Origin: Micromonospora sp. WMMA1947
GTDB taxonomy: Bacteria; Actinomycetota; Actinomycetes; Mycobacteriales; Micromonosporaceae
Assembly: GCF_027497355.1 (NCBI RefSeq)
Contig: NZ_CP114909.1
Location: forward strand, 5,103,001-5,167,000
Direction of reading: 5' to 3'
DNA: 64,000 bases
Under the pieces are notes generated by a model. That model worked only from the letters and a program-made list of their open reading frames with translations, was not told the origin of the DNA and made no database searches. Position numbers and translations under genes: made by a program. This document shows positions 4,607 to 15,559 of this stretch, one piece after another (within the stretch, counting starts at the first letter, position 1; the number at the start of each line of letters is the position of its first letter).

Positions 4607-4765
4607 ATGGCATACGCCGCCGGTGTCGGGGACCGGACAGTCGACGTGAAACGGTCTCCCCTGCTGCGATCATGGACGTCCATCGCCGCCGCCCGTCGCC
4701 GTGCCGTCGCGGCCCCACCGGCCGGCACTGTTCACCCGCCGCGTGACGAACCGGATGGCACATGA
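4607..4765 (+). CDS. Possible 52-residue protein translationally coupled to VMAP
   Basis: Starts ATG 4607 five nt after a perfect GGAGGG, and its TGA overlaps the VMAP start as ATGA. VMAP itself has no clear ribosome site, so coupling would explain its expression. Against it, about a third of its codons end in A or T, far more than in neighbours, and the product (MAYAAGVGDRTVDVKR..., ending PPRDEPDGT) matches no family I know. It lacks the C-terminal FxSxx of FxsA peptides. It may be a leader frame only. Confidence 0.4.
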   Translation: MAYAAGVGDRTVDVKRSPLLRSWTSIAAARRRAVAAPPAGTVHPPRDEPDGT

Positions 4766-6246
4766 CGCAGCATCCGTCCCCAGGCGCCGACCCCCGGCGT
4801 CACATCGAGGGGGAACTGGTCGACCTGCTGTCCGGGATGCACCTGCTCCACCAGCCCGACAGCCGCCGGCTCCTCGTCGGCAAGCTCCGCGAGCGGCTGT
4901 CCGACCACGGCGTCAACGACTACGACAACCCCCGCATGCAGAGCATCGAGATCGTCCGCGTCTGCCTGCTCGACCTGGCCACGCTGATCGAGGTGCTCGC
5001 GTTCTTCGAGCCCGCCGCCGCCCACCTCGGCCCGCTGCACCGGCTGCGCCACGAGATCGACGCGGTCGAGCTGCTGACCGTCGAGGACTGGACCGAACTG
5101 CGACCGGCGCTGTCCGCCCACCGCCCGGACTCGCTCGGCTGGCTCTACCAGCGGGCCACCGACCACAAGACGGCCACACCCCCGTCGTGGTGCGTCAGCG
5201 CCTGGGACGTCTTCGTCTACCTGACCGGGCAGAACGCGCCGGCGCACGGGCTGCCCCCGAACATGCTGTTCCTGGTGCTGCTCGAGTACGAGGTGGACCG
5301 GGCCACGGCCCGGCTGATCCGCGAGCGCAACCGGCGTCAGGCCAGCCTGCTGGATCTGACCGAGGACCTGGACCTGCGGCGGGCCCGGGTCAACGCCGGT
5401 GACCGGACCCCCGAGCCGTACGTCTACCTGGTGATCCAGGTCGAGCCGGACCTCGCCCCCGGCAGCACCGTCTACACCGTCTCCCACTACCGGCAGTGGC
5501 AGGGTGCGCAGGGCTGGCACTCCCGCCGCCACGGCCAGCTCACCGACGTCGCCCACGCCGACCTGGAGTCGACGGTGGAGCGGATCGTCCACCAGATGGA
5601 GATCGAGTGGTCGGACCGGCGGGCCGACGTCGCCGTCGAGCTGGTCCTGCCGGTGGAACTGCTCAACGAGGACGTCGCGTGGTGGCGCAAGGAGCCGGCC
5701 AGCGCCCACCTGGAGCAGAAGGTGCTGGCGATGGACTACCCGGTGGTCGTCCGCAGCCTCAACCGGCTGCGTCAGCCCGAGTGGCACCGGGCCTGGCGCC
5801 GCCGCTGGGAACACCTCCAGGCCGAGCCGGCACACAGCCGCCTCTTCCGCAGCCGCCCCGACGGCGCGGCGTACCTCACCCGCCTGGAGGCCGAGCTGAC
5901 CGCCGACCCGCGCTGGTCGACGCTGCTGCTCAGCGCCGCGCCGACGCCGGGGAACCCGCTCGGCTTCAAGGAAGTGATGACCGCCCTGCGGGCGGGCCTG
6001 CCGGTGATCGTCTGGCATCGCGCCCGCCCGTCCGACACCGAGTTCTGGGAGGAGATCCGGGACATGACCGCCGACGGACGCATCGCGCGCCTCCCGGTGC
6101 ACGCCCGGCAGGCGCGACTGGACGCGCTCGCCCTGGAGCCGCACGCCGACCGGCACAGCGGCCGCCACCTGGTGGTGCTCTGGGACGACCCGGACCGCAC
6201 CCCCGAGCTGCACCCGCCCGGCGACCGGCTGGGACGGCCGGCATGA
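4762..6246 (+). CDS. VMAP-like hub protein with N-terminal effector-associated domain
   Basis: 494 residues. Residues about 16-105 (GELVDLLSGMHLLHQPDSRR..., IEIVRVCLLDLATLIEVLAF) form a small all-helical domain like effector-associated domain 2 (EAD2). The rest resembles the vWA-MoxR-associated protein C-terminal region: AVELVLPVELLNEDVAWW, LEQKVLAMDYPVVVRSLNRL and GLPVIVWHR. In the described ternary systems VMAP is the hub between the MoxR/vWA pair and effectors joined by matching EADs. Start and stop overlap both neighbours by ATGA, so one operon is clear. No catalytic motif is visible. Family call is by pattern only. Confidence 0.7.
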   Translation: MTQHPSPGADPRRHIEGELVDLLSGMHLLHQPDSRRLLVGKLRERLSDHGVNDYDNPRMQSIEIVRVCLLDLATLIEVLAFFEPAAAHLGPLHRLRHEIDAVELLTVEDWTELRPALSAHRPDSLGWLYQRATDHKTATPPSWCVSAWDVFVYLTGQNAPAHGLPPNMLFLVLLEYEVDRATARLIRERNRRQASLLDLTEDLDLRRARVNAGDRTPEPYVYLVIQVEPDLAPGSTVYTVSHYRQWQGAQGWHSRRHGQLTDVAHADLESTVERIVHQMEIEWSDRRADVAVELVLPVELLNEDVAWWRKEPASAHLEQKVLAMDYPVVVRSLNRLRQPEWHRAWRRRWEHLQAEPAHSRLFRSRPDGAAYLTRLEAELTADPRWSTLLLSAAPTPGNPLGFKEVMTALRAGLPVIVWHRARPSDTEFWEEIRDMTADGRIARLPVHARQARLDALALEPHADRHSGRHLVVLWDDPDRTPELHPPGDRLGRPA

Positions 6247-7253
6247 GCGCGCCGGGGACCACCGACTGGCGGATCTACCGGGGCACCGGCGAGCCGCTCG
6301 ACCCGGCCGAGCGGGACCGGCGCTGGCCCGCCCCGCCGCGCTGGCGCACCTTCGACGGCGGGCCGGACGAGCCGCCGGCGCCCGCCGAGGACCCGGACCT
6401 CGAGCGTCGGCTCGGACCGGTCCGGACCCGGCGGCCGGACCCACGCGAGGTGGACGTGGTGAACGCGGCGCTGCTGCTGCGCCGTCCCCTGCTGGTCACC
6501 GGCCGCGCCGGGTCCGGCCGGTCCAGCCTGGCCTACCGGGTCGCCCGGGAGCTGGGCCTGGGCCGGGTGCTGCACTGGCCGGTCAGCACGCACGACACGG
6601 TCCGCGCCGGTCTCTGGCAGCACGACCCGCTGGGGCGGGTCCGGGCCGGGCAGAGCCCCGGCCGGTCCGTCGGGGAGGAACTCGGCGAGCACCTCAGCCT
6701 CGGGCCGCTGGGCACCGCTCTGCTGCCCTACCGCACGCCCCGGGTACTGCTCATCGACGAGCTGGACCAGAGCGACATCGACCTCCCCCAGCAGCTGCGT
6801 ACCGTGTTCGACGACGGCGGCTTCGCCATTCCCGAGCTGGTCCGGGCGGCGCCGCGCAGCCCCGAGGTGACGGTGCACACGGCCGACCCGGGCGGCCGCG
6901 CCACAGTGCGCGGCGGCCGGGTGCGGTGCCACGAGTTCCCGCTGGTGGTGATGACCTGCACCGAGGACCGGGCGTTCCCGCCCGCGTTCCTGCGCCACTG
7001 CCTGCGGCTGCGGCTGGCCGACCCGAACGAGGCGACCCTGCTGGGCATCGTGGACGCCCACTTCGCCGAGCGGCCTCCGGCCGCCGCCGGGCTGGTGCGG
7101 GCGTTCCTCGACCGGCAACGCGATCCGGAGGCGCCCACCCTGGACCAACTGCTCGACGCGGTGCAGCTCGCCTCGATCGACGGCGGCGAGGCCGACTGGG
7201 ACCGGCTCGCCGAGGTGCTGTGGCGCGGCGGGCCGACGGCGGACCCGGAATGA
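6243..7253 (+). CDS. MoxR-like AAA+ ATPase with altered Walker A
   Basis: 336 residues. After an acidic/proline N-terminal segment, RPLLVTGRAGSGRSSLAYRV (residues 81-100) is the P-loop, but the invariant Lys is Arg93 (codon CGG at 6519-6521). Walker B is LLIDELD (169-175). The sensor-1 region reads VVMTCTEDRAFPPAFLRHC, with Thr240 where relatives usually have Asn; AFLRHC keeps an arginine-finger-like Arg. MoxR proteins remodel vWA-containing partners, and the next gene encodes a vWA protein. The two substitutions may reduce or abolish hydrolysis. Overlaps both neighbours by ATGA. Confidence 0.75.
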   Translation: MSAPGTTDWRIYRGTGEPLDPAERDRRWPAPPRWRTFDGGPDEPPAPAEDPDLERRLGPVRTRRPDPREVDVVNAALLLRRPLLVTGRAGSGRSSLAYRVARELGLGRVLHWPVSTHDTVRAGLWQHDPLGRVRAGQSPGRSVGEELGEHLSLGPLGTALLPYRTPRVLLIDELDQSDIDLPQQLRTVFDDGGFAIPELVRAAPRSPEVTVHTADPGGRATVRGGRVRCHEFPLVVMTCTEDRAFPPAFLRHCLRLRLADPNEATLLGIVDAHFAERPPAAAGLVRAFLDRQRDPEAPTLDQLLDAVQLASIDGGEADWDRLAEVLWRGGPTADPE

Positions 7254-10200
7254 CCCTGCCGGCCCGGCTCTCCGTCGGCCCGGCCGGTACCGGCACGGCC
7301 CCCGGCGAGGACACGCTCGCCGAGGTGCTGCGTCCCTTCCGGCGGCTGGTCTCGTCGCGGGAACTGATCGTGTACGACGAGGAGGCCACCGCCGCGCAGG
7401 CCGAGGCGGGACTGGTCCGGCCCGTGCTGCGACGCGCCGCCCGGGCTCGCTGGGACGTGGTGCTCGTGGTGGACGAGCACCCGTCGATGACGGTCTGGTC
7501 GGCCCGGGTGCGGACCTTCGCCGCGTTGCTGCGCCGGCACGTCGCCTTCCACGACGTACGCGTGTGCCGCCTCGCCACCGGCGGAACCCGCCCCGAGGAG
7601 GTCCTGCTGCGCCGGGGCCGCGCCGGTCCGCCCGTACCCGCGGCGGCGGGCCTTCCGGTGGTGCGGCGGCACCGGATCGTCCTGGTGCTCTCCGACGGGG
7701 CGGCCCCGGCGTGGCGGACCGGCGCGGCGCTGCCGCACGTGCACGCGTGGGCGCAGCGCCACCCGGTTGCCGTCGTCCACCTGCTGCCACAGCAGATGTG
7801 GCACCGGGGCGGCCTCGCCGCGCAGCGTCTGGGCCTGCGGGCGCCCCGGGCCGGGGTGCCGAACGCCCGCCTGTGGTGGCGGCAGCCGGACCCGCTGCGT
7901 GCGCTGGCCGACCTCGGCCGGCCGGCGGACCCCGACGCGATCCCGGTACCAGTGGTGGAGCTGCGGACCCGCTGGCTGGCCGCCTGGGTGGACCTGGTCG
8001 CGGGACGCCATCCGCGCTGGGTCGATCTGCCCGCCGTGCTGGCGTACGCCAGGCCGCCGCAGCCGCCCGACTGGCGCCCGCCGCAGCGGTGGGATCCGGC
8101 CGCGGCGGTACGCGAGTTCGTCTCCTGGGCGTCACCGCCGGCGCTGCGGCTTGCCACCGGGCTGGCGGCGGCGCCGCTGGACCCGGCGTCGATCGCGGCG
8201 GTCCGCGGCGAGGTGGTGCCGGAGGCGGGCGACGTGCACCTCGCCGAGGTGTTCACCGGCCCGCTGGTCGAGCCACGACCGGGCCGCCCCGGCGTCGACT
8301 TCCGGCCCGGGGTCCGGGAGGAACTGCTGGCGATCGGCCGGCGGGCCGAGACGGTACGGGTGTGGCGGGCGCTCGCGGCGCGGCTCGGCCCGGACCGGCC
8401 GGAGCTGGCGGCGTGGGGCAGGGTGCTGTCCGACCCGGACGGTGTCCCGCTGGATTCTGCCGGGTCCGTCGCCGACGCCCGGATCGAGACCGCGGTGCTG
8501 CGCGCGCTGTCCGGCCGCTACCTGGGGCGGGCCCGGCGGCTGCGCACGGCGATCGAGCGGGACACGCCGGGCGAACCCGACGTCCGCGACACTCCCGCAT
8601 CGCGGGGCACGAATGTCATCATGGCGGTAGGCGAAGATGCCGACGTCCCCCGTAGCGTCCCCGCTGAAGGAGCCGGTTTGTCGTCGACCCCAGTGGACGC
8701 CACCACCCCCGGCCGGACTCCCGCCGTGTGGGGCAACGTCCCGCCCCGTAACCCGAACTTCACCGGCCGCGCCGACCTGCTCGCCCTGCTGCACCGGCAG
8801 ATCAAGGGCGGCACCACGGCGGTGCTGCCGCACGCGCTGCACGGCATGGGCGGGGTGGGCAAGTCGCACCTCGCCGTCGAGTACGTCTACCAGCACCAGG
8901 GCGAGTACGACCTGATCTGGTGGATCCCCGCCGAACGCGCCACCCAGATCGGCGCCTCGCTCGTCGAGCTGGCCCACCGGATGAACCTGACCGCCGGGCC
9001 GGACGTGAGCAGCGCCCGCCTCGCCGTGCAGGAGGCGCTGCGGCTGGGCCGGCCCTACCCACGCTGGCTGCTGATCTTCGACAACGCGGAGAGCCCCGAG
9101 GTGCTCCTGCCGTACCTGCCCATCGGCGGCTCCGGCAGCATCATGATCACCTCTCGCAACCCGCAGTGGGCCTCCATGGCGCGCACGCTCGAGGTGGACG
9201 TCTTCACCCGTACGGAGAGCATCGAACTGCTCCGCCGGCGCGGCCCGGAACTCACCGACGAGGAGGCCGACCAGCTCGCCGAGGCGCTCGGCGACCTGCC
9301 GCTGGCCCTGGAGCAGGCCGCCGCCTGGCGCGCCGAGACCGGCATGCCGGCCGAGGAGTACCTGCGGCTGTTCGAGGAGAAGCGGGTCGAGCTGCTCGAA
9401 CAGGCGCCCCCGATGGACTACCAGCTGCCGGTGGCCGCCGCGTGGAACGTCTCGCTGGACCGTCTGGTGGTCGCCAACCCGGCCGCGTTCCGGCTGTTGC
9501 AGGTGTGTTCCTTCCTCGCCCCCGAACCCATCCCGCGCACGCTGTTCAGCGGCGCGCAGAACGCCGACATCCACCCCGACCTCAACGGCGCGCTGCGCGA
9601 CCCGATGCGGCTCGGCCGGGCGATCCGCGACATCAACAGGTACGCGCTGGCCCGGGTCATCCACCGCACCAACTCGATCCAGATGCACCGGCTGATCCAG
9701 GCGGTGCTCCTGGACCGGATGACCGCCGCCGAACGCGACGCCATGCGCGCCAGCGCCCACCGGCTGCTCGCCACCGGCGACCGCAACGACCCGGACACGC
9801 CTGGCAACTGGCCCAGCTACGCCGACCTCTACCCGCACGTGCTGGTCTCCGGCGCGGTCGAGTCCGCCCAGGGCTGGGTGCACCAGCTGGTCTACAACGA
9901 GGCCCGCTACCTCTACTGGTGGGGCGACATGGAGGCGTCGCTGGAGCTGTCCCGGCACGCCTACCAGACCTGGCGGGAACGGCTCGGCGAAACCGATCCG
10001 ACCACCCTGCGGATCGGCCAGTGGCTCGGGTTCATGCTCTACCGGCTCGGCCGGCACGCCGAGGCCGCCGACCTGAACACCCGGATCCTGCGGGACCACG
10101 AGAGCGCCACCGCCGAGGACACCGAGGAGCTGTTGAGCGCCCTCGGCGCGGTCGCCGCCGACCTGCGGGTCGCCGGGGACTTCGCGCAGGCCCTCCAGAT

Positions 10201-11200
10201 CGACGAGGACGTCTACCGGCGGCACGTGGTGCTGCTCGGCGAGGACGACCCGAGCACGCTCAACGCCGCCCACAACCTCGCCGTCAGCCTGCGCCTGAAC
10301 GGCGACATGCGGCGGGCGTTCACTGTCGACCAGGCCACCTACGCGCACCGGGTGCTGCTGTTCGGCGAGGACCACGCGCAGACGCTGGAATCCCAGCTGA
10401 ACCTCATCATCGATCGCCGGGAACTGGGCGAGTACCTGCCCGCCCGGGCCGAGATGCAGAACGTGGTGGACCGGCTGCCACTGGTCTGGGGCAGCGCCCA
10501 GACGCAGACGCTGCTGGCCCGCCGACGGCTGGCCTCCGCGGTGCGCAAGGCCGGTGACCACGTGGCCGCCCGCGCCCTCTCCCAGGAGGTACGTGACGGC
10601 TTCGCCGCCCGCTACGGCGAGGCCCACCCGGACACGCTGCTCGCCGCGTTCGGTCTCGCCGTCGACCTGCGCGCCACCGGCGAACTGGACGCCGCGGCGC
10701 AGCTCAGCGAGGAGATCGGCGAGCACTACCGGCAGCTGTTCGGTGACGAGCACCCGTACACGGTGGCGGCCCGGGCGAACCTGGCGATCGTGCACCGGCT
10801 GCGCGGGGACGCCACGCTGGCGCGGTCGGTGAACGAGGCGGGCCTGGCGGTCCTCACCCGCCGGCTGGGCCGGGACCATCCGCTGGTCCTGGCCGCGTCC
10901 ATCAACCTCGGCAACGACCTCTACGTGCTCGGCGAGCACCAGCCCGCGTACGAGCTGGACCAGGCGACTGTGGAGCGGGCGCGGGAGGTGTTCGGCCCGG
11001 AGCACCCGACCACGCTGATCGCGCTGGGCAACCTGGCGATGGACCTGATCGCCCTGGGCCGGGAGGCGGAGGGTCGGGCGCTGCTCGACGAGATCGGCCC
11101 GACGTTCCGCCGAACGCTCGGCGACACGCACCCGGCGACCCGGGCCGGCCTGGACCCGACCGTCCGGGGCAACTGCGACCTGGACCCGATGCCGTTGTAG
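7250..11200 (+). CDS. vWA/SAV_2336-type, NB-ARC, TPR protein (FxSxx-COOH system TPR protein-like)
   Basis: 1316 residues. The N-terminal part has the SAV_2336-type vWA-like domain: RARWDVVLVVDEHPSMTVW, RIVLVLSDGAAP and HLLPQQMWHRGG. A linker ending VWGNVPPRNPNFTGR leads to an NB-ARC ATPase with an intact P-loop GMGGVGKS (about 532-539), Walker B WLLIFDNA and LGDLPLALEQAAA. The last 550 residues are TPRs with repeated GEDHPxTLxAxxNLAxxLxxxG-like units. It ends CDLDPMPL, typical of FxsT-type proteins. Such STAND proteins act as switches that oligomerise on sensing a signal. It combines the vWA partner of MoxR/VMAP with a sensor in one chain. Confidence 0.8.
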   Translation: MTLPARLSVGPAGTGTAPGEDTLAEVLRPFRRLVSSRELIVYDEEATAAQAEAGLVRPVLRRAARARWDVVLVVDEHPSMTVWSARVRTFAALLRRHVAFHDVRVCRLATGGTRPEEVLLRRGRAGPPVPAAAGLPVVRRHRIVLVLSDGAAPAWRTGAALPHVHAWAQRHPVAVVHLLPQQMWHRGGLAAQRLGLRAPRAGVPNARLWWRQPDPLRALADLGRPADPDAIPVPVVELRTRWLAAWVDLVAGRHPRWVDLPAVLAYARPPQPPDWRPPQRWDPAAAVREFVSWASPPALRLATGLAAAPLDPASIAAVRGEVVPEAGDVHLAEVFTGPLVEPRPGRPGVDFRPGVREELLAIGRRAETVRVWRALAARLGPDRPELAAWGRVLSDPDGVPLDSAGSVADARIETAVLRALSGRYLGRARRLRTAIERDTPGEPDVRDTPASRGTNVIMAVGEDADVPRSVPAEGAGLSSTPVDATTPGRTPAVWGNVPPRNPNFTGRADLLALLHRQIKGGTTAVLPHALHGMGGVGKSHLAVEYVYQHQGEYDLIWWIPAERATQIGASLVELAHRMNLTAGPDVSSARLAVQEALRLGRPYPRWLLIFDNAESPEVLLPYLPIGGSGSIMITSRNPQWASMARTLEVDVFTRTESIELLRRRGPELTDEEADQLAEALGDLPLALEQAAAWRAETGMPAEEYLRLFEEKRVELLEQAPPMDYQLPVAAAWNVSLDRLVVANPAAFRLLQVCSFLAPEPIPRTLFSGAQNADIHPDLNGALRDPMRLGRAIRDINRYALARVIHRTNSIQMHRLIQAVLLDRMTAAERDAMRASAHRLLATGDRNDPDTPGNWPSYADLYPHVLVSGAVESAQGWVHQLVYNEARYLYWWGDMEASLELSRHAYQTWRERLGETDPTTLRIGQWLGFMLYRLGRHAEAADLNTRILRDHESATAEDTEELLSALGAVAADLRVAGDFAQALQIDEDVYRRHVVLLGEDDPSTLNAAHNLAVSLRLNGDMRRAFTVDQATYAHRVLLFGEDHAQTLESQLNLIIDRRELGEYLPARAEMQNVVDRLPLVWGSAQTQTLLARRRLASAVRKAGDHVAARALSQEVRDGFAARYGEAHPDTLLAAFGLAVDLRATGELDAAAQLSEEIGEHYRQLFGDEHPYTVAARANLAIVHRLRGDATLARSVNEAGLAVLTRRLGRDHPLVLAASINLGNDLYVLGEHQPAYELDQATVERAREVFGPEHPTTLIALGNLAMDLIALGREAEGRALLDEIGPTFRRTLGDTHPATRAGLDPTVRGNCDLDPMPL

Positions 11201-11246: not shown

Positions 11247-13082
11247 TCACCCGGCAGACGGCCCCACCCAGGCCGCCAGGTCCACCGGGTCGACGGGCGA
11301 CGCGGTGGCGACCCGGTGGTAAACGGCCCGGACCAGTTCCGGCCGGCTGCGCAGCGCCTCGGCCGCCGGGGCGTGGCCCAGCGCGGCGGTGGTCAGTCCC
11401 AGCCCGGCCCACGCGGAGGGGCCGGCCGAGCCGGTCGCCAGCTCCGCGAGGTAGAGCTCGTGTGCCTGCCCGAGGTCACCGGCGGCGTAGGCCAGGTCGG
11501 CCGCGGACGCACCGGTGACCTGCTCACCGACCGTCGACGGGTCCTTACGCAACCGCGCGAAGCCCTCCGCGTCGGTGAGCCGCCACAGCAGCAGCACCGC
11601 GCGGGTGTCGAGCCGCCGCGCGCCGGGGTCCGCCTCGACCGGCGGCTCCGGGTAGTCGTCCGGACGGGCGTCGCCGGCCTCGCGAGCCGCCGCGAACGCC
11701 CGCACCGCCGCCGGGTCGGGACGCCGGTGGTGCAGCCGCCACTGGGCCCGGTGGTCGTCGACCGCAGCGTCGGCCGCGGCGAGCACCTCCGCCGGCACCG
11801 GCTCGGACCACCAGGTCTCCGCGGTGGCGGCCAGGCCGTCCAGCAGATGCCGGCCGACGTCGGTCAGCTCGGGCCGGGCGCGCAGCGCCGCCAGCGTCGC
11901 GGTGACCTGCCGCCGCCACCTGGCGAACTCGAAGTGCGCCACGGTCCGCGCCGCGCCGGTGGCCACCGGACGGTACGCCCGCCAGAACTCGGTGATCCCG
12001 ACGAACGCGTACACGCCCTGGAGCAGACCACCCAGCGGGCGCGGGTCGTCCCGCCACGGCGCGTAGAGCCGCTGCGACGGCTCGCCGGTCGTCAGCGGGG
12101 TCAGGTGCAGCAGGCCGCCGAGCTTGATGTGCTGGAACTCGTGGATCAGCGTGACAGCGAGTTCCGGCGCGTCCTCCGGCTCGGAGATGAGCATGCTGCC
12201 GAACGCGTCCCCGGCGGACGCGCTCATGGTGCGGAACCGCTCCGCCGGGCGTTGCGGCACCACCGAGAACAGGCCGCGGGCGATCGGCGCCGCCCGCTCC
12301 GGGCACACCCGGACCAGCAGGTCCCACGCCTGGGTGAGCAGCGTCCGCCAGCGGTCGATCGCCGCGACCGTGTCCAGGTCCGGCGGGGTCGGGCTGCGCA
12401 GGTTCCGGTACGGGTCGAGGAAGTCCAGCGCGACGGTCAGCGTCTGCCCGTCCGCCTCCGCCCGGACGGTGGGCAGCGCGAACCAGCCGTCCGCCCCACC
12501 GCCGTCGCCGTGGAACGCGACCCGGTGACCGTCCAGCGCGACGGTCGCCTCGCCACCGGCGGCTGCCACCTCGGCCACGCTCCACCGTTGCCCGGCCGGC
12601 AGCACGGCGCCACCGAGCGTGGGCAACGCGGCGAACCCGTCGCGGACCGGCACCCGCAGCGTGAACGACGGCAGGCCCGCGCGTACGCCGGCGGCGGCCG
12701 CTAGGGCGTGCAGGTAGCCGAGGTCCACCCAGAGTGGACCCTCGGCGGTGGTTGCGGAGCCGCGCAGCCGGCGCAGCACGTAGCCGGCCCAGGTGCCGAC
12801 GTGTGGATGCGTGAGCAGCCGGTCGACGACGTCCGGGGCGTGGCGTTGCGCCGCCACCAGCAGGGCCCAGGCGTCGGCCACCGGAGGCAGCGGACCCGCC
12901 GCCTCCGGTGTCGCGGACACCGCGTCCAGCACGGCGCGCAGTTGCAGGAGCCGCCAGCTGTGCTCGGCGGCCAGGAGCTCGTCGACGGTGCCGGCGTCGC
13001 CGCCACCCGCCGCCAGGGCCCCGAAGTGGTGGCGGCCGAGCCGGTGCCGCACCGGCTCGGCCAACGGCAGCGTGACGGTCAT
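11247..13082 (-). CDS. HExxH motif peptide-modifying enzyme (aKG-HExxH-type peptide beta-hydroxylase family)
   Basis: 611 residues. HEFQH at 314-318 in LAVTLIHEFQHIKLGGLLHL is the HExxH site, and the frame around it (SMLISEPEDAPELAVTLIHE, then RLYAPWRDDPRPLGGLLQGV, YAFVGITEFWR) is that of the TIGR04267-type family of HExxH peptide-modification proteins. These occur with FxsB radical SAM enzymes or short peptides, and the family is now named as 2-oxoglutarate-dependent peptide beta-hydroxylases rather than proteases. The C-terminal third looks like a TPR-like helical scaffold. ATG 13082 follows GGAGG by 5 nt. A 59-codon peptide gene ends 25 nt upstream; no radical SAM maturase is in the island. 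Confidence 0.8.
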   Translation of the reverse strand: MTVTLPLAEPVRHRLGRHHFGALAAGGGDAGTVDELLAAEHSWRLLQLRAVLDAVSATPEAAGPLPPVADAWALLVAAQRHAPDVVDRLLTHPHVGTWAGYVLRRLRGSATTAEGPLWVDLGYLHALAAAAGVRAGLPSFTLRVPVRDGFAALPTLGGAVLPAGQRWSVAEVAAAGGEATVALDGHRVAFHGDGGGADGWFALPTVRAEADGQTLTVALDFLDPYRNLRSPTPPDLDTVAAIDRWRTLLTQAWDLLVRVCPERAAPIARGLFSVVPQRPAERFRTMSASAGDAFGSMLISEPEDAPELAVTLIHEFQHIKLGGLLHLTPLTTGEPSQRLYAPWRDDPRPLGGLLQGVYAFVGITEFWRAYRPVATGAARTVAHFEFARWRRQVTATLAALRARPELTDVGRHLLDGLAATAETWWSEPVPAEVLAAADAAVDDHRAQWRLHHRRPDPAAVRAFAAAREAGDARPDDYPEPPVEADPGARRLDTRAVLLLWRLTDAEGFARLRKDPSTVGEQVTGASAADLAYAAGDLGQAHELYLAELATGSAGPSAWAGLGLTTAALGHAPAAEALRSRPELVRAVYHRVATASPVDPVDLAAWVGPSAG

Positions 13083-13107: not shown

Positions 13108-13287
13108 TCAGTCGAGTCGTTGCGGATTGTAACCACTGGTGATGCTCTCGGGATCGTCGACACGACGCAGCAGCCGGCCCATGACCGGACCGAGAATCTC
13201 CTGGTCAAGCTCAGGAAGGCGGTCCAACGAGACCGCGTTGAGGTCGACAAGTTCAGAGTCGACGTCGATTGCGTACGGTTGATTCAC
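13108..13287 (-). CDS. FxsA-like 59-residue precursor peptide candidate
   Basis: Begins MNQPYAIDVDSELVDLNAVS and ends ITSGYNPQRLD. The middle, SLDRLPELDQEILGPVMGRL, has the leader pattern of FxsA-type precursors (LDxLPxL...L...LxRLL). The usual C-terminal FxSxx is absent; instead there is one Tyr followed by Asn-Pro-Gln-Arg-Leu-Asp. Stop codons TAA and TGA lie in frame just upstream of GTG 13287, fixing the start to this GTG or a later codon. It is 25 nt from the HExxH gene and on the same strand, so one operon is likely. Its codons use more A/T than large neighbours, as short accessory genes often do. Its role as substrate of the HExxH enzyme is inferred. Confidence 0.6.
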   Translation of the reverse strand: MNQPYAIDVDSELVDLNAVSLDRLPELDQEILGPVMGRLLRRVDDPESITSGYNPQRLD

Positions 13288-13303
13288 GGGGAGTCATTAT
13301 CCA
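13288..13303 (-). promoter_or_regulatory. Candidate leaderless promoter of the precursor peptide
   Basis: On the minus strand GGATAAT is followed by GACTCCCC and then the GTG start. A -10 box eight bases before the start codon, with no ribosome site, suggests a leaderless transcript. Confidence 0.4.
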
Positions 13304-13407: not shown

Positions 13408-14427
13408 GTGGCCACCACCACAGTGTTCGTCCACGGATTCCTCTCCTCGGACCACGTCTGGTCCGCCTTCCGCGATCTGATCCGCGGCGACCCCGCGCTC
13501 GGCGACGTCGAGACCCACGCCTTCCGCTACGCCTCGCCGCTGCTGGCCTGGCACCCACTGCGGCGGATACCGACGTTCGACGAGGTGGCCGACAGCCTGC
13601 GCACGTTCCTGCGCCACGACCTCGCCGACCGCCCCCGGCTGGCGCTGGTCACGCACAGCCAGGGCGGACTGGTGGCGCAACGCGCCCTGGCCCGGATGCT
13701 CACCGACAACGACCCCGACCTGGGCCGCCTCCGCCTCCTGCTGATGTACGCCTGCCCGACGGCGGGGTCCGACCTCGGCCTGCCGGCACGCCGGACGCTG
13801 CTGCGCAACCCGCAGGAGCGGCAACTGAGGCCGCTCAACGCCGCAGTGCTCGACGCCCAGCGCGCCGTGCTGCACCGGCTCGTGCACGTGCCCGAGCCGT
13901 CGATGCGGGTGCTGGCGTTCGCGGGCGAGAGCGACGCCGTGGTGCCGCCGGCGTCGGCCCGCAGCGTCTTCCCGGACGCCGGTGTGCTGCCCGGTGACCA
14001 CTTCAGCATCGTCCGGCCGGACTCACCCCAGCACCGGTCCTACGTCGTCCTGCGGCAGGCGCTGTGGCACCTGGCCGACGACGAGGTCCGGCCACCGGCG
14101 CACCCCGTTCCGCGGCCCCGCACGGCCACCGCGGCGTCGTCACCGCTGAACGACAGCGAGCTGGTGGACCTGCTCCTCGAGGTGCCCGGGATGACCGACC
14201 CGGCGTTCCGCGCGCAGGCGTACGCGCGGTTGCCGCTGCGCGTACGCGAGCAGTTGTCCCGGCCCGGGCCGGCGCGGCTGGAACTGCTCGCGGCGCTCGG
14301 CACGTTGCGCGACTACCGGCACCTCGCCCCCGGCCGGGCCCTGGCCGACGCCCTGGCGGCCCTGGTGCCGGAGCACCCGGTCGTCGACGAACTGCGGGAG
14401 CGGCTGGTGGCCCTGGACGCGGGCTGA
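13408..14427 (+). CDS. Alpha/beta hydrolase with C-terminal effector-associated domain (candidate effector)
   Basis: 339 residues. N-terminal hydrolase: oxyanion-region VFVHGFLSS, nucleophile Ser84 in VTHSQGGLVA, acid Asp176 in AGESDAVV and His198 in GDHFS, as in lipases and PGAP1-like esterases. After a proline-rich linker (about 228-247) comes a helical domain, residues 249-337: ELVDLLLEVPGMTDPAFR, ARLPLRVREQLSRPG. That reads as an EAD2-type effector-associated domain, the same class as the VMAP N-terminus. Such a pair should dock like with like, so this is the natural effector of the neighbouring hub. Lipid, ester or thioester substrates are possible; none is shown. Confidence 0.7.
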   Translation: MATTTVFVHGFLSSDHVWSAFRDLIRGDPALGDVETHAFRYASPLLAWHPLRRIPTFDEVADSLRTFLRHDLADRPRLALVTHSQGGLVAQRALARMLTDNDPDLGRLRLLLMYACPTAGSDLGLPARRTLLRNPQERQLRPLNAAVLDAQRAVLHRLVHVPEPSMRVLAFAGESDAVVPPASARSVFPDAGVLPGDHFSIVRPDSPQHRSYVVLRQALWHLADDEVRPPAHPVPRPRTATAASSPLNDSELVDLLLEVPGMTDPAFRAQAYARLPLRVREQLSRPGPARLELLAALGTLRDYRHLAPGRALADALAALVPEHPVVDELRERLVALDAG

Positions 14428-14453
14428 CCGGCACCGCCACGGCACGCGGTCAG
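14424..14453. terminator. Weak hairpin between convergent genes
   Basis: CTGACCG (14424-14430) pairs with CGGTCAG (14447-14453). The stem holds both stop codons of the hydrolase and M24 peptidase genes. Confidence 0.4.
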
Positions 14454-15559
14454 AGCGCGACCAGCTCCGTGGGAGTGGCGTTGAGCCGCTGCCCGCCGTC
14501 GGGCGTGCAGACGACGATGTCCTCGATCCGGGCGCCGTGCCGCCCGGCGAGGTAGATCCCGGGTTCGACCGAGAACGCCATGCCGGCCTGGAGCGGCAAG
14601 CGGTTGCCCGTCACCACGTACGGCTCCTCGTGGCCGTCGAGGCCGATGCCGTGCCCGGTGCGGTGCAGGAAGGCGTCGCCGAAACCGGCGGCGGTGATGA
14701 CGTCCCGGGCGACCGCGTCGAGGGCTTCGGCGGTCACTCCCGGCGCGACCGCGGCCACGGCGGCGCGCTGCGCCTCCCACAGCACCGCGTAGTAGTCGGC
14801 GAACTCGGCCGGGGCGGGGCCGCCGGCGACGTACGTGCGGGTGCAGTCGGAGCGGTAGCCCGACGGCATCGTGCCGCCGATGTCGACCACCACGGGCTCA
14901 CCGGCGCCGATCGGGCGGTCCGAGGTGCCGTGGTGCGGGCTCGCGCCGTTGGGGCCGGCGGCCACGATGACGAAGTCGACAGCGGCGTGCCCGGCGGCCC
15001 GGATCGCGGCGGCGAGGTCGGCGGCGACCTCCCGTTCGGTGCGGCCGGGGCGCAGCCACTCCCCCATCCGCAGGTGCACCGCGTCGATCGCGGCACCCGC
15101 CTCGGCCAGCGCGGCCACCTCGGCTGGCGACTTGCGGATCCGCATCTCGCGCAGCACCTCGGAGGCGAGCCGCTGAGCCACGCCGGGCAGGACGTCGCGC
15201 AGCGCGAGGACCTGCTGAGCCCACATCCGGTCGGCCAGCCCGACGGCGCGGACCGGCCCCGGTAGCGCCGCGCGGACGAGCGGCCACGGGTCGGTGCCGT
15301 CGGCGTGGTCGACGATCCGGAACCCGGCGCCGGGTGCGGCCTCGGCGTCCGGCCGTTCCAGCACCGGCACGATCAGCGTCGGCTCGCCCTCGGCGGGCAG
15401 CACCAGGCAGGTGAGCCGCTCGCCCTCGCGGGCGTCGTAGCCGGTCAGGTAGCGCAGGTCGGAACCGGGGGTGAGCAGCAGCGCGTCCAGGCCCGCCGCG
15501 GCGGTGGCGCGCTGGGCGTCGGACAGCCGTGCGGCCGGGTACAGCTCCTCGATTCCCAC
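14450..15559 (-). CDS. M24 family metallopeptidase (Xaa-Pro aminopeptidase-like)
   Basis: 369 residues. The N-terminal creatinase domain (DALLLTPGSDLRYLTGYDAR) is followed by a pita-bread domain with the metal ligands in order: VVDIGGTMPSGYRSDCTRTY (two Asp), HRTGHGIGLDGHE (His), SVEPGIYL (Glu) and GARIEDIV (Glu). These are the five ligands of dinuclear M24 peptidases, so it should remove an N-terminal residue from Xaa-Pro peptides. Start GTG 15559 follows TAGGCT by six bases, a leaderless arrangement. Confidence 0.9.
   Translation of the reverse strand: MGIEELYPAARLSDAQRATAAAGLDALLLTPGSDLRYLTGYDAREGERLTCLVLPAEGEPTLIVPVLERPDAEAAPGAGFRIVDHADGTDPWPLVRAALPGPVRAVGLADRMWAQQVLALRDVLPGVAQRLASEVLREMRIRKSPAEVAALAEAGAAIDAVHLRMGEWLRPGRTEREVAADLAAAIRAAGHAAVDFVIVAAGPNGASPHHGTSDRPIGAGEPVVVDIGGTMPSGYRSDCTRTYVAGGPAPAEFADYYAVLWEAQRAAVAAVAPGVTAEALDAVARDVITAAGFGDAFLHRTGHGIGLDGHEEPYVVTGNRLPLQAGMAFSVEPGIYLAGRHGARIEDIVVCTPDGGQRLNATPTELVAL

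Follow-up and report, generated by a model that had tools for sequence, protein, structure and literature searches.

Is a short frame next to a HExxH enzyme gene, with no radical SAM partner, a real precursor peptide gene, and what would the enzyme do to its product? We examined one such pair in a window of 64,000 nucleotides, the whole stretch of Micromonospora sp. WMMA1947 DNA that was analyzed. The original prediction named a 59-codon gene ending in SGYNPQRLD, 25 nt before a HExxH gene on the same strand, and this arrangement is present: the frame runs on the minus strand from a GTG at 13287 to a stop at 13108 (13108..13287), and the enzyme gene (11247..13082, minus strand) begins with an ATG at 13082. 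The full product of 59 amino acids is VNQPYAIDVDSELVDLNAVSLDRLPELDQEILGPVMGRLLRRVDDPESITSGYNPQRLD. It ends in ...ESITSGYNPQRLD, and residues 51-59 (13111..13137, minus strand) form the C-terminal tail SGYNPQRLD, of which P55-x-R57-x-D59 is the most widely kept part. The claimed FxsA-style leader was also recovered, with TIGR04268 (FxSxx-COOH) matching residues 14-54 (E 8e-6) at 26 bits, just under the cut-off of 28. This is the sole TIGR04268 match found in the 6.31 Mb one-contig genome. We predict that the gene encodes an RxD-type precursor peptide with an FxsA-like leader.

The description of the gene as unannotated holds in part. The copy of Pfam scanned here gave no match for the window's peptide, and some homologues are deposited as "hypothetical protein", but others, where a name is given, are called "FXSXX-COOH protein", and 20/22 database homologues carry the precomputed Pfam accession PF27839. 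These 22 homologues, which include P0006 (the window's own sequence, start residue aside), all end in PQR[LI]D, and 21 have SGYNPQR. A first survey found a peptide ending in SGYNPQR[LI]D 25-37 nt upstream of the enzyme in 8/37 loci scanned, a count that takes in the window's own locus and one genome seen twice. A codon comparison against 11 orthologues gave a dN of 0-0.11 over the last 17 codons of the window's peptide gene, where dS is 0.88-2.22 in the seven more distant pairs; the two closest pairs (L072 and L073) have no changes there and are hence uninformative on selection. The 29 preceding codons have a dN of 0.11-0.52 and a dS of 0.35-1.83. The codon changes show purifying selection on the peptide gene, and R-x-D is retained among peptides whose leaders diverge.

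There is no clear Shine-Dalgarno sequence ahead of the GTG in the window's genome, and GAGGAG or AAGGAG precedes the same GTG in the L077-L084 clade. A -10-like element, GGATAAT (13296..13302, minus strand), lies 8 nt ahead of the GTG. The same or similar elements occur at this place in close relatives, including L004 and L071, which have different sequence further upstream, so a leaderless start is possible and is what this element suggests. That the frame is spurious, as its GTG start, the unclear Shine-Dalgarno and the failure of our own codon-usage model to call it a gene could imply, we consider virtually discounted in view of the purifying selection, the GAGGAG or AAGGAG sequences in the L077-L084 clade and the homologues deposited in databases. 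Sequence comparison thus confirms the 59-codon frame as a real, conserved gene.

To place the pair among its relatives, the family was searched with a peptide profile (A1), which matched 76 places in 55/250 genomes. We analyzed 75 retrieved regions and the window, sorted by how the best peptide of each ends: NPQRxD (16), PPxRxD (40), SGYxxSF (11), FxSxx (5), other (2) and none (2). The groups are defined by their own tail patterns, so PP in PPxRxD and NPQR in NPQRxD are there by definition. Read by hand, the two "none" loci end in PPGRAD (L120) and in WNSAM, the latter with FxsB present (L123). Counting them in gives 41 PPxRxD loci (FxsB in 0/41) and 6 FxSxx loci (FxsB in 6/6); the counts given elsewhere are without this correction. 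Conservation of the small frame upstream of HExxH orthologues, on which the original prediction was to be checked, was found, as in 16/16 NPQRxD loci the peptide gene lies ahead of the enzyme gene on one strand, with an estimated gap of 16-173 nt. The peptide also comes first in 25/40 PPxRxD loci (estimated gap 25-82 nt); order or distance differs in 12, and no HExxH gene was found within the retrieved region in 3 (L087, L094 and L145), of which L145 sits at a contig end. The L087 region has a PPGRxD peptide, no AP-ATPase that we could find and a nearby gene that looks transposase-like by eye. The L094 region, also with a PPGRxD peptide, has kept its AP-ATPase gene.

RxD peptides appear to be concentrated in the bacterial family to which the window belongs, since a class-wide peptide search gave matches in just 14/394 genomes, and the best after the window's own genome (E 7e-33) reached only 1.8e-10. 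Tails of the RRLD or RRFD kind occur in a distant family (L172, L180 and L183). FxsA-like peptides were seen near HExxH genes in another actinobacterial family (L159, L162, L172, L176, L180, L183 and L188), where, within the 3.5 kb covered around each match, the tails are FGGYST, FSKQGKLS, ERRRLD, KVDRQD, SRRLD and SRRFD.

The claimed lack of an FxSxx tail and of FxsB stands. The peptide ends in NPQRLD, and FxsB (TIGR04269) has 0 matches at E<=1e-60 in the window's one-contig genome, which is not among the 160/250 genomes of the family sample with FxsB at this threshold. With an FxsB profile built from three loci and counts restricted to the retrieved region around each locus, FxsB was found in 0/16 NPQRxD, 0/40 PPxRxD and 0/11 SGYxxSF loci versus 5/5 FxSxx loci; it is also in 1/2 loci with other tails and 1/2 "none" loci. 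An ordinary FxSxx pathway with split genes, in which a radical SAM enzyme encoded elsewhere adds a cyclophane, could draw on two weak radical SAM matches in the genome (78 and 23 bits against a cut-off of 370). We regard it as very improbable, with no FxsB at E<=1e-60 in the genome, none near any of the 67 RxD and SGYxxSF loci combined, and no FxSxx in the tail.

The tail follows a rule across the family. R-x-D ends 58/76 peptides, counting also tails that have an inserted T or end in one extra G, in a set from which L003, L005, L007 and L008 were dropped as repeats of L072, L071, L074 and L076, and to which L004 and L006 were added. Pro stands two residues before the Arg in 56 of the 58 (the exceptions are L097 and L129), partly by definition, as the groups were set by pattern. 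The residue directly before the Arg is G in 38, Q in 18, T in 1 and D in 1, and the x of R-x-D is A in 25, V in 16, L in 11 and I in 6. Conservation points first to the P-x-R-x-D tail, with Pro55, Arg57 and Asp59, whereas the original prediction had the enzyme act possibly near the Tyr or Asp. Asp59 lies within this tail and so remains a candidate site, and Tyr53 (Tyr53/Asn54) may also be one because the SGYxxSF peptides share SGY[NS] with the window's peptide.

The enzymes sort in the same way as the tails. We built a tree of 74 enzymes, leaving out L087, L094 and L145 (no HExxH found) and L123 (length filter). The PPxRxD enzymes fall in a clade of 39, of which 37 have a peptide that fits the pattern; of the other two, L120 fits on manual reading and L134 ends in GPPGHSD. 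The window's enzyme is in a clade of 13 made up of 12 NPQRxD loci and L006 (9665-9967, Wenjunlia tyrosinilytica), where the peptide of the related enzyme ends in VAGSNS, neither RxD nor FxSxx. The SGYxxSF enzymes group with five NPQRxD enzymes (support 93/82, branch not starred). Core type requires 7 changes on the tree versus a mean of 33.5 when shuffled, with 0/200 shuffles as low, a contrast to which near-copies contribute. The enzyme clade tracks the core type of the peptide.

The enzyme itself is predicted to be an aKG-HExxH-type peptide hydroxylase of 611 amino acids. TIGR04267 (aKG-HExxH-type peptide beta-hydroxylase) scores 181 bits against a cut-off of 40, and this is the sole TIGR04267 match found in the 6.31 Mb genome. 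The HEFQH motif is intact (residues 314-318, 12129..12143, minus strand), and its H314, E315 and H318 are invariant in 70 rows of the four core types and 62 rows of A2. W343, R344, D346, P347 and R348 are invariant in the same 70 rows, and the PWRxDxRP stretch is largely common to the window's enzyme and ChlH. In VIA-align, the predicted fold matches SjiH and the HExxH domain of ChlB, deposited as an aKG-dependent oxygenase, far above any other aligned chain. A helical, TPR-like region occupies the C-terminus (about residues 488-606, 11265..11621, minus strand). We considered E385 as a third metal ligand and rejected it, as the residue is not invariant. Family score and fold together assign the enzyme to the aKG-HExxH hydroxylases, with hydroxylation as its predicted activity.

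In addition to the pair, the window contains the other genes of a predicted VMAP-ternary system, three of them on the plus strand and directed towards the HExxH gene. The first encodes a VMAP protein (4762..6246) with EAD2, VMAP-M0 and VMAP-C domains (Pfam E 9e-10, 1e-24 and 2e-42; 87 bits for VMAP-M0 and 146 bits for VMAP-C). It is followed by a gene (6243..7253) for an AAA ATPase that occupies the place of MoxR in the ternary core, with a MadB_ATPase match below cut-off (E 1.2e-9) and a weak Pfam AAA match (best E 0.026). The third (7250..11200) encodes a 1316 amino acid fusion of a SAV_2336-type N-terminal region to an AP-ATPase (NB-ARC), DUF7779 and TPRs; its end and that of the HExxH gene lie 46 bases apart. 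It matches NF041121 (294 bits) and NF040586 (FxSxx_TPR, the "FxSxx-COOH system tetratricopeptide repeat protein", 882 bits), both over cut-off, and Pfam finds NB-ARC, DUF7779 and TPR_12. Pfam finds nothing in residues 1-496, where no vWA model matches even at E 10. Position and NF041121 are therefore what the vWA identity is based on; a VVLVVDEHPSM stretch in the fusion is vWA-like by eye.

On the other side, divergent from the peptide gene, is a gene for an alpha/beta hydrolase with a C-terminal EAD2 (13408..14427, plus strand), a predicted effector (EAD2 exceeds its cut-off at 27.5 bits, Abhydrolase_6 falls short of its own at E 7e-4). EAD2 is thus present both in this hydrolase and in the VMAP protein, and a BLASTP of the two copies against each other gave no significant match. 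Among 18 other NPQRxD loci, with two genomes counted twice, homologues occur of the VMAP protein in 18, of the hydrolase in 13 and of the MoxR protein in 7. A PADLOC scan gave no match for 4/5 proteins, and its RtcR match of the AAA protein (E 0.096) was taken as chance. An Xaa-Pro peptidase (M24/creatinase-type, 14450-15559) was considered as a trimming enzyme and rejected as a part of the system because a homologue occurs in just 2/18 other NPQRxD loci, one genome seen twice (L005 and L071). From the gene content, the peptide and enzyme are one arm, of the RxD type, of a predicted VMAP/AP-ATPase conflict system that is larger than the pair and has its remaining genes next to it.

An NB-ARC protein is present in 16/16 NPQRxD and 38/40 PPxRxD regions. 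It is fused to the vWA-position region in 16/16 NPQRxD, 11/11 SGYxxSF and 17/40 PPxRxD loci; in the PPxRxD group it has an EAD2/VMAP-M0-like N-terminus instead in 16/40, is partial or alone in 5 and absent in 2. Across the regions the most constant partner is the AP-ATPase-TPR protein rather than the vWA-position part, and we therefore take this protein as the likely reader of the peptide.

These relatives include a compact variant, which our analysis adds to what was predicted. In it, an AP-ATPase-TPR protein with an EAD2/VMAP-M0-like N-terminus and without the vWA-position part stands beside a PPxRxD peptide (L074, L088-L090, L092-L095, L097, L101, L103-L105, L108, L111 and L130). A Pfam scan of the N-termini of L074, L089 and L103 found EAD2 in 3/3 and VMAP-M0 over cut-off in two, with L103 just under. 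In L090 and L103, the two loci of this variant whose neighbor was scanned, that neighbor is a nucleoside phosphorylase with EAD2.

For the chemistry, the modification site, the reader and the biological role of the peptide, we infer the following. The FxsA-like leader would bind the lone alpha-ketoglutarate/Fe HExxH enzyme, which would hydroxylate a beta carbon in the C-terminal P-x-R-x-D tail. Pro55 would be the most likely site, next Gln56, then Asn54/Tyr53 or Asp59, and no cyclophane would form because FxsB is not present. The modified peptide may stay in the cell or be trimmed by a general protease. The AP-ATPase-TPR protein would then read it, and this reading may set the threshold for firing the STAND switch and its EAD2-linked hydrolase. 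We lean somewhat toward this reading as a whole, namely an RxD peptide arm with a tail hydroxylated by a lone HExxH enzyme and read by the AP-ATPase-TPR protein. It is supported by the position of the peptide closely upstream of the enzyme in all 16 NPQRxD loci, by the family score, fold and invariant residues of the enzyme, by the lack of FxsB near RxD loci, by the recurring Pro two residues before the Arg, by the co-variation of enzyme clade and core type and by the frequent NB-ARC neighbor. The reactions described for PosC, PflC and PesO at or near an R-x-D tail also speak for it.

Several observations go against hydroxylation as proposed. PesA and PosA are modified at the residue directly before the Arg, whereas the conserved Pro here sits one residue further away. 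The SGYxxSF peptides share SGY[NS], but nearly all are without RxD (L129 has it), which would favor Tyr53/Asn54 as the site. Two RxD-peptide regions (L087 and L094) had no HExxH gene.

An alternative is oxidative cleavage of the backbone by the enzyme just ahead of R-x-D, in which the tail would be lost and an amide left behind, like the reaction of PosC and PflC at ARMD. According to the accessible text of PMC12636437, these two enzymes beta-hydroxylate a Gln run and oxidatively remove the C-terminal ARMD, and PosC in part removes GRMD in an A91G variant. Gly precedes the Arg in 38/58 RxD peptides, so the PPGRxD type is a more plausible case for such a cut than the window. Here the residue is Gln, and PosC hydroxylates a Gln placed at the Ala position of ARMD without cutting (PMC12636437, accessible text). 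For the window we think the oxidative cut improbable.

Hydrolysis is a somewhat better surviving option, although we still judge it quite unlikely. In this case the HExxH protein would act on the precursor as a metallopeptidase and free a short C-terminal toxin or signal, as proposed by Burroughs et al. 2020 in the available portion of PMC7159879. PflC reportedly does release ARMD hydrolytically if its leader is missing (PMC12636437, accessible text). The window's enzyme scores as an aKG-HExxH hydroxylase by TIGR04267, however, SjiH and the ChlB HExxH domain match it far above other aligned chains, and the characterized relatives need aKG and oxidize, as far as the accessible parts of PMC12636437 and PMC13060819 describe them.

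Of the alternatives, the one that survives best, and is still unlikely, is that the peptide is no substrate and serves as a small partner or inhibitor of the AP-ATPase or the HExxH enzyme, the latter hydroxylating another protein of the system. The pair does sit in a multi-gene STAND system, and from general knowledge of TPR ligands a free terminal Asp could bind a TPR domain. Against this, core type and enzyme clade change together, and the leader gives a match, at a score slightly short of the cut-off, to a known precursor family.

Returning to hydroxylation and reading by the AP-ATPase-TPR protein, a more far-reaching version, which we consider less likely than not, is that the P-Q-R-L-D tail becomes a hydroxylated intracellular ligand that gates or licenses an NLR-like AP-ATPase-TPR switch, and that R-x-D is a tail on which lone HExxH enzymes repeatedly dock. 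If so, a bacterial immune system would use a RiPP modification as an internal signal that depends on oxygen and aKG. Were the modified tail the ligand of the AP-ATPase-TPR protein, it would also provide a defined small molecule for studying how such systems switch. The shared R-x-D may be a coincidence or serve another reader, because R, M and D of ARMD are each dispensable for PosC in PosA, where removal of ARMD lowers Gln hydroxylation (PMC12636437, accessible text).

Since 2020 the RxD type has been predicted from sequence only and interpreted as a protease system. Our literature search, with subscription papers mostly outside it, found no published test of an RxD-type pair, and the accessible text of PMC8195603 does not treat the peptide. 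To the earlier description we add the hydroxylase reading, the P-x-R-x-D tail rule, the co-variation of enzyme and core and a ranked list of target residues. The hydroxylase view joins two literatures, lone-HExxH RiPP chemistry and STAND-type bacterial immunity.

Among known systems, the FxSxx-COOH (FxsA/FxsB; TIGR04268, TIGR04269) cyclophane RiPP systems are like the window in the leader, the HExxH partner and the NF040586 TPR protein. They differ in that the window has no FxsB, no FxSxx tail and a peptide under the TIGR04268 cut-off. ChlH (8s5f) and SjiH (22nu, 22ob) have the same fold and HExxH site as the model of the window's enzyme. ChlH is a domain of a radical SAM fusion, SjiH is deposited as "Radical SAM core domain-containing protein", and nothing in the solved chains (368 and 440 residues) corresponds to the TPR-like region at the C-terminus of the 611 amino acid enzyme.

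PflC/PosC and PesO are lone HExxH enzymes, and the ARMD and R(V/T)DN of their peptides share R-x-D with the RLD here (accessible parts of PMC12636437 and PMC13060819). PesO hydroxylates carbon 3 of the Pro before the conserved R(V/T)DN, and in the available text this Pro co-occurs only with the HExxH enzyme (PMC13060819). Unlike the window, these clusters are described there as also encoding transporters and an MNIO enzyme, and the descriptions list no STAND gene; PflA has a nitrile-hydratase-like leader, whereas that of the window's peptide is FxsA-like. Some biphenomycin clusters also encode a HExxH hydroxylase, according to the available parts of PMC12257519 and PMC12707348. We note that three separate lone-HExxH precursor families have R-x-D at or near the C-terminus, which may be coincidence.

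The closest known counterpart is the RxD type of Burroughs et al. 2020 (PMC7159879, here and below in its accessible text). That study describes a peptide-processing arm of VMAP-ternary systems, consisting of a zincin-like protein and a small protein with four C-terminal types, and mentions related standalone peptide-processing systems with AP-ATPase. Of these types, only FxSxx is reported there with a radical SAM gene, and two, RxD and acidic, have the AP-ATPase fused to the vWA protein. The window shares with this RxD type the HExxH gene, a small FxSxx-like protein ending in R-x-D, no radical SAM gene, VMAP, an EAD-coupled effector and an AP-ATPase-TPR fused to another core part. What was proposed as a minimal RiPP pathway therefore stands as a conserved precursor-like peptide with a lone HExxH enzyme and no FxsB, but not as a new, isolated pathway or a distinct class, since the type was described in 2020 and the pair adjoins VMAP/AP-ATPase system genes. 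The gene pair is real, conserved and of an already classified kind. It differs from the earlier account in the enzyme, which is read there as a peptidase that cleaves the precursor and is assigned here, by its sequence family, to the predicted aKG-HExxH hydroxylases.
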